This document shows positions 16,894-24,088 of a DNA stretch of 64,000 bases, in pieces (within the stretch, counting starts at the first letter, position 1; each line of letters opens with the position of its first letter). This stretch comes from Rubritalea squalenifaciens DSM 18772 (lineage in GTDB: Bacteria > Verrucomicrobiota > Verrucomicrobiia > Verrucomicrobiales > Akkermansiaceae): NCBI RefSeq assembly GCF_900141815.1, contig NZ_FQYR01000002.1, forward strand, positions 721,091 to 785,090, read 5' to 3'. The notes beneath the pieces were generated by a model. It was not told the DNA's origin, made no database searches, and saw only the letters and a program-made list of their open reading frames with translations. Made by a program: the position numbers and the translations under genes.

Positions 16894-17658
16894 ATGTTCA
16901 AACGTTTAGGTAATCTCATCAAAGGCTTTTTCGGACTCTTCGTCGGAGGATTGGAGAAGCGTAATCCTGAAGCTCTGCTTGAAGTGGAGAAGGAGAACCT
17001 GCGCAAGCAGATCGCCAAATTCAACCAAGGCCTGGCTACGCATGCCGGTTTGGTGGAGAAGCTAGTCGCTCAAGTGCGTAAGCTGGACAAGGAGGAGAAT
17101 GAGCTGCGCGCCAAGACTGCTGCTCACCTCAAAGCTGGCAACCGTAAGTTGGCCGGTGAGTTTGCTCTCAAACTCAAGAAGGTGGATGCTGAGCACGATG
17201 ATGTGAAGGTCCAGTTGGAAGACGCCGAGAAGCGTTACAAGGAGCTGATCCGTGCTCGCGACGTATCCGTGAAGGAAGCTCGTGACAAGATCGAGAGCCT
17301 GAAACGCGGTATCGACGACATGAAGGTGCAGAAGGCTATGGCTGAGCTCAATGAGATGGCCGCTGGTATGGTGACCGACATTGGAGGTTCCGGGGATACC
17401 TTGAGCCGTCTTGATGAGATCGTCGAAGAAGAGCGCACCAAGGCAGCAGGTCGTGCCCGTGTCGCCAAGGACAGTCTCGATATGACTGATATCTCCATGA
17501 AGGAGAGCGAGCAGGATGCTCTTGCTGAAATGGCTTTGGCTGACTTTGCTGCCGCTGAAGGCATGCAGATCGAGACTACGGACAACCAGGCGCCTCCAAG
17601 TTCTACTGAGGAGCAGACCAAGTCCTCCGGTACTATGGGGCCGGGCGTGACTGAGTAA
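16894..17658 (+). CDS. pspA: PspA/IM30 (ESCRT-III-like) membrane-remodelling protein
   Basis: A 254-residue PspA/IM30 family protein. The N-terminus (M-F-K-R-L-G-N-L-I-K-G-F-F) is the amphipathic helix that binds membranes. Residues about 25-190 form the long charged coiled coil of the family. The last 60 residues are acidic, Ala/Ser/Thr-rich and probably disordered. PspA and Vipp1 share the ESCRT-III fold and polymerise on stressed membranes. No PspF activator or PspB/C is nearby; instead the next gene is a classical-clade AAA+ ATPase. Confidence 0.88.
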   Translation: MFKRLGNLIKGFFGLFVGGLEKRNPEALLEVEKENLRKQIAKFNQGLATHAGLVEKLVAQVRKLDKEENELRAKTAAHLKAGNRKLAGEFALKLKKVDAEHDDVKVQLEDAEKRYKELIRARDVSVKEARDKIESLKRGIDDMKVQKAMAELNEMAAGMVTDIGGSGDTLSRLDEIVEEERTKAAGRARVAKDSLDMTDISMKESEQDALAEMALADFAAAEGMQIETTDNQAPPSSTEEQTKSSGTMGPGVTE

Positions 17659-17688
17659 AGCTAGCCTGTTAGTTTATCGTTTTTTATC

Positions 17689-17725
17689 GAAGGGTCTTGC
17701 CGCAGGCGGGCCCTTCATTGTTTAG
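17689..17725 (+). terminator. Hairpin between pspA and the AAA+ ATPase gene
   Basis: GAAGGGTCT pairs with GGGCCCTTC (17689-17697 with about 17708-17716; wobbles near the loop), followed by ATTGTTT. It acts as a weak terminator or attenuator. It covers the TTG at 17697, which argues against that TTG as the start of the next gene. Confidence 0.4.
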
Positions 17726-17732
17726 TGATGTC

Positions 17733-19379
17733 ATGAATAATCTTCCTGCTTGGGCGGATGAAGTGATCGCATCTTACGAGAGTGGTGCGGCAGGATGTTT
17801 TGTATTACACGGGAATGTGAACGATCGCCTGATCGTGCCGAGGCCTGATGGTTCGTTGCGCCTGGGTAACTTGAGTGAGTTCCTGATGCGTGCACTCTTG
17901 CCTAGATTTGACGTAGTTCTGTCTTACGACCTGGGCTTCGGCATGCGTGTCGAGAGGGGCGGGGAGGTTTTCAGTGAATGGCCAAGTCTGGGGGATACCC
18001 CTGAACTTCCGCATCTTCCTTTGCCTGCTATTAGGACGCTCACGCACTACATGCAGTATTGCAGGAATCTTAAAATCATGGGCCAGAAGGCGCCTAAGGT
18101 GGCGGTGATTGTGCGTCAGTCCCATCTGGTGTGCCCGGCGATTCCTAATCTGCTGAACTATGAGCTGAGTTCGATGGCCTCGCTACTCAGAGGGTGGGCT
18201 GCTGATGGTAGACTGTGCGAGTTTGGCCAGGCTGCGTTCTTGATATCTGAGAATATGAATGGCTTGCATCCTCTGGTGGCAGACTGCCCGAATATGGATC
18301 CTGTGGAGATCCCCTTGCCGGCAGCCAAGCAGATTTCGGCTACCTTGGAGCTGTTGAAGCCGGATTGTCCGCAGGCGCTGGGAGATTTTGTGGATCAGCT
18401 TGACTTGGTAGCCAGCAGGTTGACGGGGGCTACGGTAAGTTCGGTGGAGGCCTTGCTTAAAAGGCGTGAACATGACAAGAAGCCACTAGATGATGATAGT
18501 CTGGCGGATCTGAAAAAGGATCTGGTGGAGAGAGATTGTGATGGCTTGATCGATTTCGTGGAGCCGGACCGCACACTGGACGATGTGGTAGGGCTGGATG
18601 GCGTGAAGCAGTGGTTGAGGCAAGATATAGAGCTCTGGAAACAGGGGGAACTGGAGGCCTTGCCGATGGGTTATCTCTTCTGTGGGCCGGTGGGCACTGG
18701 CAAAACTTATCTGGCCGAGTGCCTGGCGGGTGAGGCAGGGGTGCCTGTGGTGACAATGCGAAACTTCCGTGACAAGTGGGTAGGATCCACCGAGGCTAAC
18801 CTGGAGAAAATCTTTGCTCTGCTGCATGCGCTTGGGCGCTGTATTGTCTTTGTGGATGAGGCGGATCAGGCGCTGGGTAAGCGCCAGGGTGGATCCGGTG
18901 ATTCCGGAGTGTCAAGCCGCGTCTATTCGATGATGGCCAAGGAGATGTCCAATACCCGCAACCGGGGTAAGATCATGTGGGTGCTGGCGTCGAGCCGCCC
19001 TGATTTGATCGAGGTGGATCTGAAGCGTCCTGGTAGGGTGGATGTGAAAATCCCTCTATTTCCTACTTTGAATAAGCAGGAGGGCTTTAGTCTGATCCGA
19101 GCTTTGTGTAAGCGCAGGGATCTTTCCATCAAGGAGGAGGACTTCCCTGTCGTGGAGGCTTTGGTGCCGGATTTACTCACGCCCGGGGCGGCTGAGACGA
19201 TTTCAGTACAGACCTTCCGTCTGAGTAAAACCAGTGAGCATGGTGATCTAGATGCGCTATTGACTTGTCTGCGTGATTACCGGCCTCCGATTGCCCATGA
19301 AACCTTGAAGTTTCAGATGCGCTTGGCGATGGATGAGGCCACTGATGCTTCTTTGATTCCAAGTGATGTAAACATTTAA
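17733..19379 (+). CDS. Classical-clade AAA+ ATPase next to PspA
   Basis: A 548-residue protein with a ~270-residue N-terminal region containing a conserved-looking L-H-G-N-V-N-D-R motif near residue 30, then one AAA+ module: Walker A G-P-V-G-T-G-K-T at 318-325, Walker B ending V-D375-E376-A, and the second region of homology S-S-R-P-D-L-I-E with L-K-R-P-G-R-V-D, which marks the classical AAA clade (Vps4, FtsH, p97). No transmembrane segment or protease domain is seen. It directly follows pspA. Since PspA has the ESCRT-III fold, a Vps4-like disassembly role is attractive but unproven. The ATG at 17733 is preferred to a TTG inside the upstream hairpin. Confidence 0.82.
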   Translation: MNNLPAWADEVIASYESGAAGCFVLHGNVNDRLIVPRPDGSLRLGNLSEFLMRALLPRFDVVLSYDLGFGMRVERGGEVFSEWPSLGDTPELPHLPLPAIRTLTHYMQYCRNLKIMGQKAPKVAVIVRQSHLVCPAIPNLLNYELSSMASLLRGWAADGRLCEFGQAAFLISENMNGLHPLVADCPNMDPVEIPLPAAKQISATLELLKPDCPQALGDFVDQLDLVASRLTGATVSSVEALLKRREHDKKPLDDDSLADLKKDLVERDCDGLIDFVEPDRTLDDVVGLDGVKQWLRQDIELWKQGELEALPMGYLFCGPVGTGKTYLAECLAGEAGVPVVTMRNFRDKWVGSTEANLEKIFALLHALGRCIVFVDEADQALGKRQGGSGDSGVSSRVYSMMAKEMSNTRNRGKIMWVLASSRPDLIEVDLKRPGRVDVKIPLFPTLNKQEGFSLIRALCKRRDLSIKEEDFPVVEALVPDLLTPGAAETISVQTFRLSKTSEHGDLDALLTCLRDYRPPIAHETLKFQMRLAMDEATDASLIPSDVNI

Positions 19380-20393: not shown

Positions 20394-21698
20394 CTAGATG
20401 TTTTTCAGCATGCCGTTGGAGTCTCCCACACGCTTCGCATTCACGTTCATACGTTCCAGCAGGGAGAGGTAGAGATTGGTCATGGGTGTTCCCTCGGGGG
20501 CGTGGATATATCTTCCCGGCTGCAAGCTGCCGGCACCACCTCCGGCCAGGATGATGGGCAGGTTGTCGTGGTTGTGCCGGTTGCCGTCGGCTATGCCGCC
20601 GCCGTAGACGATCATAGTGTTGTCCAGCAAAGAGCCTTCGCCTTCCCGGATTCCGCGGAGTTTGGAGAGGAAGCGGGCGTATTCTTCGATGTAGAAGCGG
20701 TCGATCTTGGCGATCTTTTCTAGGTGGTCCTCCTTCTTGCGGTGGTGGGAAAGGGAGTGATGCCCCTCAGAGATACCGATTTCTTGGAAAGAACGGTTCG
20801 ATCCATCATGGGCCAGAAGGAAGGTGCTGATGCGGGTGGAATCTGTCTGGAATGCCAGGGCCATGAGGTCATACATGCTTCGGATGTGCTCGCGGTAGCT
20901 GTCTGGGATGCCGTTGGGCTTTTGTTCTGCCGGGTAGTTGTTTTGAAATTTTTCATGACGGCTGATGCGTTGCTCGGTTTCGCGGATGGCAGTCATGTAC
21001 TCCTCGAGTTTGTCCCGGTCGCTGGAGCTGACCTTGTGGTGCAGGCGCTTGGCGTCTTCCATGACGAAATCGAGCACGCTTTGGTTCAGAGCGCGACGTT
21101 TGGCGTCTTCCTTGGCATTGCCTGAACCGAAGAGTTTTTCGAATACTAGCCGGGGGTCTCGTTCCGCCGGGGCAGGAGTGGTGGCGCTGCGCCAGGAGAG
21201 GTTGAACTGGTAGGCACAGGAATAACCGGAATCACAATGACCAGATTTCCGGGGTGGATCTGTGCTGAGCTCGAGGGAGGGAAGTCGTGTGAGGTGGCCA
21301 ATCTGCTGGGCGGCGATTTGATCTACCGAGACCCCTAGGTGAATTCCTTCACCTGTGGTTTTGCGGGCTTGGCAGCCTGTGAGGAAGGTGGCATTGGCTC
21401 TGGCGTGATCGCCGGGGCCGTCTCCGTTTGGGCGAGCCTTGTCGTGGTCGAGTCCGCCTACGACTTGGAAATGCTGGCGTAGCTGGGCGAGAGGTTGGAG
21501 TGATTCGCTGAGTCGATAGTTGCTGCCGCTGCCGGTCGGGCGCCATTTGTCCAAGTTTACTCCATTGGGGGCATAGACGAATGCCATGCGCAGCGGGTGT
21601 TCTCCAGCTTGGCTGGTGCTCATGTTTTGTCCCAGTGACTCTAGATTGGGGATGGTCATGGCGGCGCCTAGGCCTTTGAGGAATGTTCTACGGTGCAT
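20394..21698 (-). CDS. DUF1552 secreted protein (Planctomycete/Verrucomicrobia type)
   Basis: A 434-residue protein with a Tat-like N-terminus (H-R-R-T-F-L-K-G-L-G) and a full-length DUF1552 domain: A-P-N-G-V-N near 45, G-D-H-A-R-A-N-A-T-F-L-T-G near 97, the L-S-T-D-P segment, and a C-terminal Y-G-G-G-I-A-D-G-N-R-H-N-H-D-N-L-P-I-I-L block. The family is abundant in Planctomycetes and Verrucomicrobia and is nearly always paired with a DUF1592-type cytochrome gene, here directly upstream in the same operon (14-base gap). The fold resembles sulfatase/phosphatase-like exported proteins, but no activity is established. Confidence 0.88.
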   Translation of the reverse strand: MHRRTFLKGLGAAMTIPNLESLGQNMSTSQAGEHPLRMAFVYAPNGVNLDKWRPTGSGSNYRLSESLQPLAQLRQHFQVVGGLDHDKARPNGDGPGDHARANATFLTGCQARKTTGEGIHLGVSVDQIAAQQIGHLTRLPSLELSTDPPRKSGHCDSGYSCAYQFNLSWRSATTPAPAERDPRLVFEKLFGSGNAKEDAKRRALNQSVLDFVMEDAKRLHHKVSSSDRDKLEEYMTAIRETEQRISRHEKFQNNYPAEQKPNGIPDSYREHIRSMYDLMALAFQTDSTRISTFLLAHDGSNRSFQEIGISEGHHSLSHHRKKEDHLEKIAKIDRFYIEEYARFLSKLRGIREGEGSLLDNTMIVYGGGIADGNRHNHDNLPIILAGGGAGSLQPGRYIHAPEGTPMTNLYLSLLERMNVNAKRVGDSNGMLKNI

Positions 21699-21712
21699 GG
21701 TAAGTATGGGGT

Positions 21713-24088
21713 TTAGTTGCGCTGATACTGGAAGGTGGGACTGTGAACGATGGCGCGTATCAGCGAGTGGGCGCGGTAATCGTTTTGATGGAGCTGCTTG
21801 AGAATGGTTGCGATGTGATTGCGGTCTGCGCGCGTAGTGCCTCTACCAAGTGCGTAGGTGAGCATCTTGGCCGTCAGGCTGTGCAGGAATTCCTCTTTCT
21901 TGTTTTGGCTCAGTACTTTGAGTAGCGAGTCGGCGCCGGTGAGCTTTTCTCCGGTGACTAGCTGGCCTGAGGTGTCGATGGCTTGTCCGTCGAGTGAGTC
22001 TTGCCAGGCGCCGATGCCGTCAAAGTTTTCTAAGGCGAAGCCAATCGGGTCCATTAGATTGTGGCAGCTGGCGCAGGAGGTCTTTTCCCGGTGGAGCTCA
22101 AGTTGCTGGCGGAGGCTCAGCTTGTCGCTGTGTGCGCCAGCGTCTTCCAGTGGAGGGAGGTTGGGTGGAGGAGGTGGTGGTGTAATGTGGAGAATGTTCT
22201 CGAGTACGAATTTCCCGCGTAGCACTGGCGAAGTGCGAGTCGGTTGCGAGGTGAGGGTAAGAATGGAGGCGTGGGTGAGAATGCCGCGGCGCGGGGTGCC
22301 GGCGAGGCTGACTTTACGGAAGTTCTCTCCTGCTACATCCTGAATGCCGTAATGTCTGGCGAGTCGGCCATTGAGGTAGCTGTAGTTGGCGTCGAGCAGG
22401 TTCAGGAGGCTTTTGTCCTGCAGGATGATCTCGTCGACCAGAAGTGTGGTTTCCCTCTGCATGTCTCTCCTGAGCTTAGGGTTAAAATCCGGATAGGTCT
22501 TGCGGTCCGGGGAGATAGCGTCGAGGTCGCGTAGTTGGAGCCACTGGCCGGCGAAGTTTTTGGTCAGGGCATGAGCGCGCGGGTCCCTGAGCATGCGTTC
22601 GATCTGGGAATCAAGCTGCTGGCGCAGCTGGTTCTTATCAGCAAGATCCAGTAGTGTCTCGTCAGGCATGCTGCTCCAGAGGAAGTAGGAGAGTCTGCTG
22701 GCGAGCTGGTGCTCAGACACCAGGTGGAACTCGGTGTCGTTCTTGGATTCTTGTGTCGGTAGGTTGAGGAATAGAAAAGACGGGGAGACCAGCATGGCTT
22801 GGATAGCTCCTCTGATCCCCTGATTAATCGAGCTGTCTTGCTGGGAGGCAATTTGCTGGGCTAGCTGGACATAGCGCTGGATTTCCTCGGCATTGGTCGG
22901 GCGGCGGAAGGCGCGTTTTGAAAATTGCTGAAGCGTGTCGCGGGCGTAATCCTCATCACTGGTGTTTGGGCTGCGAGGTGGGAAGATGGCGTGGTGGCTG
23001 GCTGGTTTGTCCCGCTTCAGGCCTGAAGGTCCCACGAGAGTGGCCTTGTGGATCATCAGATTCCGGTCGCGTAGCTTGGGGTTGGGGTGCTCGGGATCCC
23101 AATGGTCGTTGATGAAAGTCAGGCTAATGCGGTTCGTGCCCTGCTTGAGCTTGAGTTTAGTGGTGTATTGCTTAGGGCGGTGCATCGGGTTTTCGATGCT
23201 GAAGGTGGTGATCGAGGCGTCTGAATGGCCCACTTCGAGCTTGGCGTATTCGTTTCCTGAGCGGGAGGCGGAGGCGGTGACGTGCAGAACATATTCTCCT
23301 TCATGCTCTACTTCTTGCAGGATAATGGCGGAGCCCCGGGTGTGCAGAAAAATGCCTTCGTCTCTGACTCTCCCCTCGGTCTGGGCCTTGCTGAGATTGA
23401 GGCGGGTAAGGGGTGTAGGCATGGGGCCGATGACGATGGCTTTGTCCAAGGCGAGATCGCTAGCCTTGAGATAGCGATCGATGTGGGCGGGGGACAGCGT
23501 GAGGGCGGCATTGATGTTGTCGAAGCCATGCGCGGAGTCGTCAGGTGGCAACATTTCCAAGATGTCCACGTCGACTCCCAAGAGGTCTCGAAGGGTGTTT
23601 TGGTATTCGAGGCGGTTTAGTCTGCGTGTGGTGCTGGGGCCCGGATCGTCAGGGGATTCATAGGTGGGGAAAACGGTGTCATTGATCCAGTCGACCATCT
23701 GGGTGATCTCGTGGGCAGCAGGCTGTTCCTCGTCCACTGGAGGCATGAGCTGGTAATCTATTCTAGAGAGGATGTGCTCCCAGGTTTTAGGGTCTGAGCG
23801 GATGGAGGCCAGATCATCAAAGTCGTCCAAGCAAAGGCCGCCCTTGTGGCTGCCGTCGCCATGGCAGTCGTAGCAGTAATACTGGAGTAAGGGTTTGATG
23901 TTCTTTTCCCACTGGGTAGTGAGTTCAGTGTCGCTGAGACCCGTCGTGGTGAGGGGGCTGTCCGGAAGCGGTTCTGCTGAGGTGAGGTTTTTCTGGTGCC
24001 CAAACCAAGGCGCAAGGAGCCAGCCTGTGACAAAACAGGAAATCACTAGTGAGCTTTTCAGCCAGAGAGTAGGCGACACTTGGAGCAT
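21713..24088 (-). CDS. Planctomycete-type cytochrome c/DUF1587-DUF1592-DUF1588-DUF1585 protein
   Basis: A 791-residue exported protein. After an N-terminal anchor (about 12-30) comes a haem c motif C72-Y-D-C75-H76, typical of the PSCyt1 domain, then DUF1587 (R-R-L-N-R-L-E-Y-Q-N-T-L-R-D-L-L-G near 155), a carbohydrate-binding-like insert (about 240-340), DUF1595/DUF1592 (S-R-L-S-Y-F-L-W-S near 460), DUF1588 (R-R-G-I-L-T-H-A near 600) and DUF1585 at the end (L-T-Y-A-L-G-R-G). A second C-x-x-C-H (C-A-S-C-H) lies near 665. It is probably an envelope redox protein; its partner DUF1552 gene follows. Substrate unknown. Confidence 0.9.
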   Translation of the reverse strand: MLQVSPTLWLKSSLVISCFVTGWLLAPWFGHQKNLTSAEPLPDSPLTTTGLSDTELTTQWEKNIKPLLQYYCYDCHGDGSHKGGLCLDDFDDLASIRSDPKTWEHILSRIDYQLMPPVDEEQPAAHEITQMVDWINDTVFPTYESPDDPGPSTTRRLNRLEYQNTLRDLLGVDVDILEMLPPDDSAHGFDNINAALTLSPAHIDRYLKASDLALDKAIVIGPMPTPLTRLNLSKAQTEGRVRDEGIFLHTRGSAIILQEVEHEGEYVLHVTASASRSGNEYAKLEVGHSDASITTFSIENPMHRPKQYTTKLKLKQGTNRISLTFINDHWDPEHPNPKLRDRNLMIHKATLVGPSGLKRDKPASHHAIFPPRSPNTSDEDYARDTLQQFSKRAFRRPTNAEEIQRYVQLAQQIASQQDSSINQGIRGAIQAMLVSPSFLFLNLPTQESKNDTEFHLVSEHQLASRLSYFLWSSMPDETLLDLADKNQLRQQLDSQIERMLRDPRAHALTKNFAGQWLQLRDLDAISPDRKTYPDFNPKLRRDMQRETTLLVDEIILQDKSLLNLLDANYSYLNGRLARHYGIQDVAGENFRKVSLAGTPRRGILTHASILTLTSQPTRTSPVLRGKFVLENILHITPPPPPPNLPPLEDAGAHSDKLSLRQQLELHREKTSCASCHNLMDPIGFALENFDGIGAWQDSLDGQAIDTSGQLVTGEKLTGADSLLKVLSQNKKEEFLHSLTAKMLTYALGRGTTRADRNHIATILKQLHQNDYRAHSLIRAIVHSPTFQYQRN

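Follow-up and report, generated by a model that had tools for sequence, protein, structure and literature searches.

In eukaryotes and archaea, proteins of the ESCRT-III superfamily are paired with a classical AAA ATPase, Vps4, which binds a C-terminal MIT-interacting motif (MIM) of ESCRT-III (passages in PMC8281802 and PMC11188069). In archaea a PspA-like protein is also found next to a Vps4-like ATPase whose N domain is of the VAT type (passages in PMC11188069). For bacteria it is described as unclear whether PspF has a Vps4-like action or some equivalent ATPase helps Vipp1 (passages in PMC8281802), and a 2026 review still finds the control of polymerization and disassembly unclear (passages in PMC13051332). 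The closest described bacterial system is that of Ravi et al. 2024 (PMC11237479, section 18), in which PspA occurs with a protein of two AAA+ domains, the N-terminal copy being inactive; AEY64321.1 is given as an example and OGG56892.1 for longer operons. The pair analysed here lies in a 64,000-nucleotide (nt) stretch of Rubritalea squalenifaciens DSM 18772 (Verrucomicrobiota; contig NZ_FQYR01000002.1, positions 721,091 to 785,090), called the window, and consists of pspA followed by the gene of a two-domain AAA+ ATPase (table 1). It is a widely inherited two-protein module, and with moderate confidence it can be said to work like ESCRT-III and Vps4. Computed here are the pairing, the recurrent joint presence and absence, the correlated divergence, the predicted anatomy of the ATPase domains D1 and D2, the preserved D2 motifs and a tail motif that sets one type of PspA apart.

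The assignment of the first gene to PspA is real but remote. Pfam family PF04012 matches the protein at 33.8 bits against a cut-off of 33.9, and at 35.5 bits, over the cut-off, in a six-frame search of the whole 4.3 Mb genome, where it is the single PspA match; a PDB sequence search at E 0.01 returns no match. The predicted model (mean predicted local distance difference test score (pLDDT) 77.7, from a 41-sequence alignment) has six helices, at residues 2–23, 25–81, 84–135, 142–157, 159–194 and 198–222. This is helix 0, a long helical hairpin and further helices in a Vipp1/PspA-like fold. Foldseek ranks Vipp1 (6zvr) first, followed within the top 50 by further Vipp1, SynPspA, CdvB and CHMP entries; the best E is 2.7e-3 (probability 1.00) and no match lies below 0.001. 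The protein is a diverged PspA, and the ESCRT-III fold proposed in the initial annotation holds at this distance. Its C-terminal tail has pLDDT below 50 at residues 230–249 and 252–254.

The ATPase gene follows directly 3′ of pspA, across a gap of 74 nt (17659–17732). The N-termini of relatives favour the annotated ATG at 17733 over an in-frame TTG upstream at 17697. PF00004 matches at 91.1 bits, at residues 327–452 of the TTG-start form. The predicted model (mean pLDDT 88.7) is built from 57 sequences, the same number that underlies the conservation figures below. It resembles the tandem D1–D2 architecture of p97/Cdc48, Rix7, NVL and Drg1 and can be aligned with Rix7, p97 and NVL nearly end to end, across about residues 5–535 (Rix7 7t0v: Z 20.8, root-mean-square deviation (rmsd) 4.6 over 458 residues, model residues 5–531; NVL 9bji: Z 21.1, rmsd 6.8 over 456 residues). 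Taken by itself, D2 matches spastin 3b9p (Z 22.3, rmsd 2.5, 250 residues), Vps4 3eih (Z 21.8, rmsd 2.9, 262 residues) and a fidgetin-like protein. It belongs to the classical AAA clade: K324, T325, D375, E376, R432 and R435 are invariant, the two arginines lying in the second region of homology, which had been rightly called complete.

D1 is predicted to be a dead counterpart. A Walker A motif (GxxxxGK[ST]) is present in none of the 57 sequences, acidic residues are missing at the end of the Walker B strand (residues 122–130) in most, and mean column conservation is 0.58 against 0.74 in D2. At the P-loop position G27 and D31 are invariant and N28 occurs in 56 sequences; most relatives that have diverged further also show G-N-x-x-D. 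Profile–profile comparison finds no sequence similarity between D1 and D2 (probability 0.1), which leaves the predicted fold as the basis for calling D1 an AAA+ domain. In that fold the L-H-G-N-V-N-D region, initially singled out as an unusual N-terminal part that could bind PspA, sits where a degenerate AAA+ domain would have its P-loop. On this prediction a special N-terminal PspA-binding domain is rejected, although the stretch may bind PspA all the same. With an invariant glycine and aspartate retained at the old P-loop, the dead D1 would be a case of a pseudo-ATPase domain put to another task.

The predicted anatomy separates the protein from its better-known relatives. D1 lacks the ATPase motifs of the p97, Rix7, NVL and Drg1 group and leaves no space before it for a p97-type N domain. 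The archaeal pair also has a PspA-like gene upstream and an AAA ATPase without MIT, but its N domain is VAT/Cdc48-like (passages in PMC11188069), whereas a degenerate AAA+ domain is predicted here. Escherichia coli PspA likewise has an AAA+ protein, PspF, which is a sigma-54 activator; neither the sigma-54 activator domain nor a helix-turn-helix domain has a Pfam match in the ATPase up to E 0.1. Compared with the eukaryotic and archaeal systems, the likeness is that of an ESCRT-III-superfamily protein and a classical AAA ATPase. The difference lies in the architecture, and Vps4 orthology is ruled out on the model: no MIT domain is predicted (residues 1–250 are alpha/beta and align with D1 of tandem AAA proteins), and there are two AAA domains, the first dead, instead of a single cassette. 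The suggestion of a bacterial Vps4 equivalent keeps a Vps4-like role as the best reading; the predicted protein is a dead-D1/active-D2 machine. Both that layout and the partner classes are the same as in section 18 of PMC11237479, and by description the ATPase fits the two-AAA PspA partners listed there, with an N-terminal copy inactive in the predicted fold and with PspA co-occurrence.

The two genes are inherited together. Each protein was used to search 98 genomes of the order, among them the window's own. The ATPase was scored as present at E under about 1e-100, a threshold set after the outputs were seen; absences are soft, as limited first-look candidates were scored per genome and many genomes are incomplete metagenome-assembled genomes (MAGs). 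Both genes occur in 51 genomes, neither in 44 and one only in three, the ATPase in G086 and PspA in G001 and G003 (Fisher p 3e-24, uncorrected for shared ancestry), which amounts to 52 genomes with the ATPase (G067 and G093 as pieces only) and 53 with PspA. Among 35 genera, 12 hold both genes in all genomes, 14 hold neither in any, eight mix genomes that carry the pair with genomes that lack both genes, and one combines pair-bearing genomes with the ATPase-only genome. The eight mixed genera point to joint gain or loss of the pair, which has probably happened repeatedly. Linkage is not a constant companion of this pattern: the two genes are no more than 6 kb apart in 21 of the 51 genomes, on different contigs of draft assemblies in 28, and far apart on one contig in two (G005 and G029). 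All eight other genomes of the window's genus with both genes have the pair unlinked. The nearest named relative by ATPase is Rubritalea profundi, at 73% identity.

Conservation of the pair, which the initial annotation had left to be checked, extends far past close relatives, to other genera of the order and to other phyla. Among 84,980 species' genomes scanned, 423 ATPase relatives were found, and the best 80 were retained; the titles of their records name Planctomycetota, Candidatus Sumerlaeota, Abditibacteriaceae, Acidobacteria, Thermoanaerobaculia and Deltaproteobacteria MAGs, among others. In 50 of these 80 loci the ATPase is preceded on its own strand by a PspA homologue (three as contig-edge pieces only), with gaps of about 7 to 3,075 nt (median about 177) in the 47 that can be measured. 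All 13 genomes of the best 80 that were searched whole contain a PspA of the type that partners the ATPase (at least 397.8 bits), including six with no PspA in the fetched flanks of the ATPase. A scan of viral contigs with the ATPase, using patterns built from one sequence only, gives no match.

Planctomycetota provide a second test bed, in 294 genomes centred on G236, which was itself picked for having the pair (ATPase at least 350 bits, E 1e-5, thresholds again set after the outputs were seen). PspA is found in 42, the ATPase in 39 and both in 38 (p 4e-42, inflated by shared ancestry). The exceptions are G308 with the ATPase only, G434 and G524 with ATPase fragments, G378 with PspA on a short contig, and G349. 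The two proteins also diverge in parallel. Where PspA scores above 390 bits the ATPase scores above 700 (a fragment in G434); PspA of 188–225 bits is matched by ATPase of 500–532 (none for G378), and PspA below 120 bits by ATPase of 350–441 (a fragment in G524, none in G349). Pairwise distances of PspA and ATPase correlate at r 0.93 (2,850 pairs, 76 genomes; uncorrected for the species tree). A wider draw from the window's phylum (144 genomes of completeness at least 90, the window's among them) contains partner-type PspA without the ATPase in G132 and G141, and a distant ATPase in G138, G180 and G210. All three of the latter also have a distant PspA close to that ATPase; the profile itself caught two of these three.

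Partner-type PspAs share a conserved body, a linker variable in length and composition, and a short motif with the core K-x-[M/L/I]-G-P; in the window the lysine stands five residues before M. In the 41-sequence alignment, which crosses phyla, M248 and P250 reach 90% conservation or more. The motif was sought in the last 36 residues of 79 tails, left from 84 PspAs after removal of identical tails; three of the 79 come without a whole ATPase (fragments in G434 and G524, none in G378). [MLIV]GP is present in 63, with K or R at most five residues before it in 55 of the 63. MGP occurs in 54 of 79 tails against a mean of 1.0 and a maximum of 5 in 1,000 shuffles, and K-x(1,2)-[MLI]-G (K or R) in 61 against a mean of 3.2 and a maximum of 10. 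The 16 tails without [MLIV]GP include K-T-M-G ends, K-x-L-G-x, T-M-S-G-P, K-x-M-x-P-like forms, E-K-x-M ends and one frame that overruns the motif. Thirteen further tails, the most diverged of Planctomycetota and two of them identical, extend the set to all 42 Planctomycetota genomes with PspA. All 13 have [KR]-T-[IL]-G, five with P and eight as K-T-[IL]-G without it; all fit K-x(1,2)-[MLI]-G and five have [MLIV]GP, which brings the latter to 68 of 92 overall. As a control, 30 canonical PspAs of Planctomycetota were taken (best Pfam matches that became loci, from 89 genomes with a match), six of them second PspAs in genomes that also hold the partner type; [MLIV]GP is found in none of the 30 tails. 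PspAs that are not adjacent to the ATPase retain the motif (L134, L137–L141). The C-terminal tail is, on this comparison of sequences, a better candidate for the recruiting element than the L-H-G-N-V-N-D region. The tail tag is not known to resemble MIM1 or MIM2.

Six partner-type PspAs occur without a detected ATPase. Those of G132, G141 and G349 lack [MLIV]GP; the first two genomes belong to one genus and are 100 and 99% complete, and the G349 protein has R-E-L-G, which fits the loosest pattern. Those of G001, G003 and G378 keep it, as would be expected if the ATPase lies in an unassembled part of these genomes.

Several variants of the tail stand beside this pattern. The PspA of L160 carries the motif twice at its C-terminus (K-E-M-G-P ... 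K-E-M-G-P). In the sister branch (G138, G180 and G210), with its distant PspA and distant ATPase close together, the tail is [RK]-Q-K-I-A-E(S) after an A/P/Q-rich linker and may, by its sequence, be another sort of tail tag. Near PspAs that have the partner-type body but lack the tail motif, a giant AAA+ protein is encoded (DUF3686; 1,754 amino acids (aa) in L129, and similar by eye in L128), and the G132 PspA likewise lies near this other AAA+ type. Such cases are possibly an exchange of partners inside one PspA family.

The explanation judged rather likely is that the ATPase takes hold of the PspA tail and dismantles PspA polymers, in the way that Vps4 dismantles those of ESCRT-III. The proposed steps are as follows. 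(i) PspA would form ESCRT-III-type polymers on the stressed inner membrane. (ii) The partner ATPase would assemble as a ring, a dead D1 layer stacked on an active D2 layer. (iii) The conserved tag near the end of the disordered PspA tail would recruit the ATPase. (iv) The tail would be threaded into the D2 pore, lined by the W-V pore loop. (v) ATP-driven unfolding of PspA subunits would then remodel and recycle the polymers. The logic would be that of ESCRT-III and Vps4 made of other parts, with a pseudo-AAA D1 in place of the MIT domain and a new tail tag in place of the MIM. A broader proposition is evenly balanced between true and false: that this is a separately arisen bacterial analogue of ESCRT-III/Vps4, in which a pseudo-AAA D1/active D2 unfoldase reads the K-x-[M/L/I]-G-P tag of a dedicated PspA, with its own counterpart of the MIM–MIT handshake and energy-driven recycling, present in at least five phyla by record titles and joined by a sister branch with a [RK]-Q-K-I-A-E tag. 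With two proteins and a short candidate handle, the question of a dedicated bacterial ESCRT-III ATPase becomes open to direct in vitro test.

A number of observations weigh against disassembly of PspA by its partner. Contact between the two proteins, and the activity of the ATPase, are inferred only. Both Fisher tests and the distance correlation are inflated by shared ancestry. The ATPase occurs without detected PspA in G086 of the order and in G308, and 13 further Planctomycetota genomes have weaker ATPase relatives and no PspA of the partner type; the wider ATPase family therefore has other uses or partners. In the 144-genome draw the close pair is confined to the window's own genome, so outside the order it is patchy. 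As for the tag, 24 of the 92 tails lack [MLIV]GP, most having a recognizable variant, and the looser K-x(1,2)-[MLI]-G also turns up in six of the 30 canonical PspAs. The tag is kept without a detected ATPase in G001 (58% complete), G003 (82% complete) and G378 (a draft of unstated completeness). Few contrasts therefore tie the tag to the partner: these three keep it, and two of the three tagless cases (G132 and G141) are from one genus. A search for the tag's docking surface through clade-specific tag variants yielded nothing that can be read as an ATPase interface: the clades in question have 3, 2 and 3 diagnostic positions, the control clades 1 and 2.

Three other explanations fit parts of the same evidence. 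PspA could be a regulator, binding and inhibiting the ATPase ring, or targeting it to the membrane, in the manner of PspF control, with stress freeing the ATPase for other proteins. Two regions of E. coli PspA, of which one is C-terminal, do bind the AAA+ protein PspF (abstract of PMC6003685), and co-inheritance fits this scheme equally well. It is nevertheless unlikely, given that the ATPase has no sigma-54 activator match and that its conserved pore-loop position is of the threading type. Unfoldases often engage substrates near the end of a disordered tail, which is where the tag lies. PspA could instead be a recruiter only, bringing the ATPase to damaged membrane to extract or refold other membrane proteins. 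Some Planctomycetota relatives lie beside ABC permease and PBP-OmpA or NfeD genes, so other ATPase clients are possible. That the pair stays joint even when unlinked tells against this, weakly, and pure recruitment is improbable. Least credible, and most improbable, is a shared stress programme without contact, the tail tag serving membrane, protease or PspA–PspA contact: interaction being an inference, it would accommodate G086 and G308 with an ATPase and no detected PspA and G001, G003 and G378 with a tagged PspA and no detected ATPase, but repeated joint presence and absence, correlated divergence and confinement of the tag to partner-type PspA all speak against it. Disassembly of PspA polymers by the partner ATPase is the preferred reading.

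The idea itself is not wholly new. An association of PspA with a two-AAA protein is predicted in PMC11237479 (section 18), so in outline the initial proposal of a PspA–ATPase pair was already in print as a prediction. The present analysis adds a measure of how strong the association is, the finding that it does not depend on linkage, a corrected D1 anatomy and the tail motif. Section 18 says that the partner 'occasionally co-occurs', against the strong co-inheritance measured here; neither co-inheritance of unlinked genes nor the tail motif is found in section 18 and other passages of that paper, and its main text has no word starting Verrucomicrobi- or Planctomyc-. Literature searches found no paper joining PspA, AAA+ ATPase, ESCRT-III and Verrucomicrobi-, and no report of the tail motif, subscription papers being largely outside the search; the phrase 'bacterial Vps4' is absent from the top literature matches.

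Table 1. Features of the pspA–ATPase locus and of related loci. Positions refer to the window unless a locus is named. ORF, open reading frame.
Feature	Position	Strand	Basis
pspA, diverged PspA/IM30 (ESCRT-III superfamily), 254 aa	16894..17658	+	ORF, Pfam, predicted model, Foldseek
PspA C-terminal tail, residues 223–254, without predicted structure	17560..17655	+	predicted model; variable linker in alignment
Tail motif K-S-S-G-T-M-G-P, residues 243–250, core T-M-G-P, candidate docking tag	17620..17643	+	alignments of tails
RNA hairpin, 12 bp, no U run, in pspA–ATPase gap	17689..17716	+	z -1.7 for 17656–17740
Two-domain AAA+ ATPase gene, 548 aa	17733..19379	+	ORF, Pfam, alignment, predicted model
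D1, predicted degenerate AAA+ domain, residues 1–250	17733..18482	+	predicted model, motif checks
D1 signature H-G-N-V-N-D at P-loop place	17808..17825	+	57-sequence alignment
D2, intact classical AAA domain, residues 271–548	18543..19376	+	Pfam, predicted model
D2 Walker A GPVGTGKT	18684..18707	+	ORF translation, alignment
D2 pore-loop position W349-V350	18777..18782	+	W 57/57, V 55/57
D2 Walker B D375-E376	18855..18860	+	alignment
D2 sensor 1/second region of homology (S-S-R-P-D ... K-R-P-G-R)	18990..19037	+	R432 and R435 invariant
Sister-system PspAs with [RK]-Q-K-I-A-E(S) tail	L125 11844–12590; L126 12960–13823; L127 13975–14727	-	
Motif-less PspAs and DUF3686 AAA+	L129 7906–14318; L128 50–3979 and 7478–8221		

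Thirteen neighbouring ORFs were scanned against Pfam, roughly 11.9–26.4 kb of the window, and, as initially annotated, none is PspB, PspC or PspF. Upstream lie genes for L25, PTH, S6, SSB, a DUF1287 protein and phosphofructokinase; downstream lie genes for a 3D-domain protein, a DUF1552 protein, a DUF1592-family protein, an endonuclease III-like protein, ExbB and ExbD. One of the 13 has no Pfam match. The DUF1552 gene adjoins a cytochrome-type gene with DUF1587/1592/1588/1585 (20394–24088, minus strand), convergent to the ATPase side. No intrinsic terminator was called in the gap between pspA and the ATPase gene. The hairpin there is a possible attenuator and could lower ATPase expression relative to PspA.

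Gene order varies among distant relatives. In the Planctomycetota loci L237 and L238, ABC permease genes stand between PspA and the ATPase, and L238 also has NMT1-OmpA proteins; these arrangements are like the longer operons with PBP-OmpA and permease genes described in section 18 of PMC11237479. Both loci encode a protein of about 200 aa 3′ of the ATPase, with no Pfam match in L237. In one further Planctomycetota genome (L240, 8032–10963), NfeD and NfeD1b genes lie upstream of the pspA–ATPase pair.

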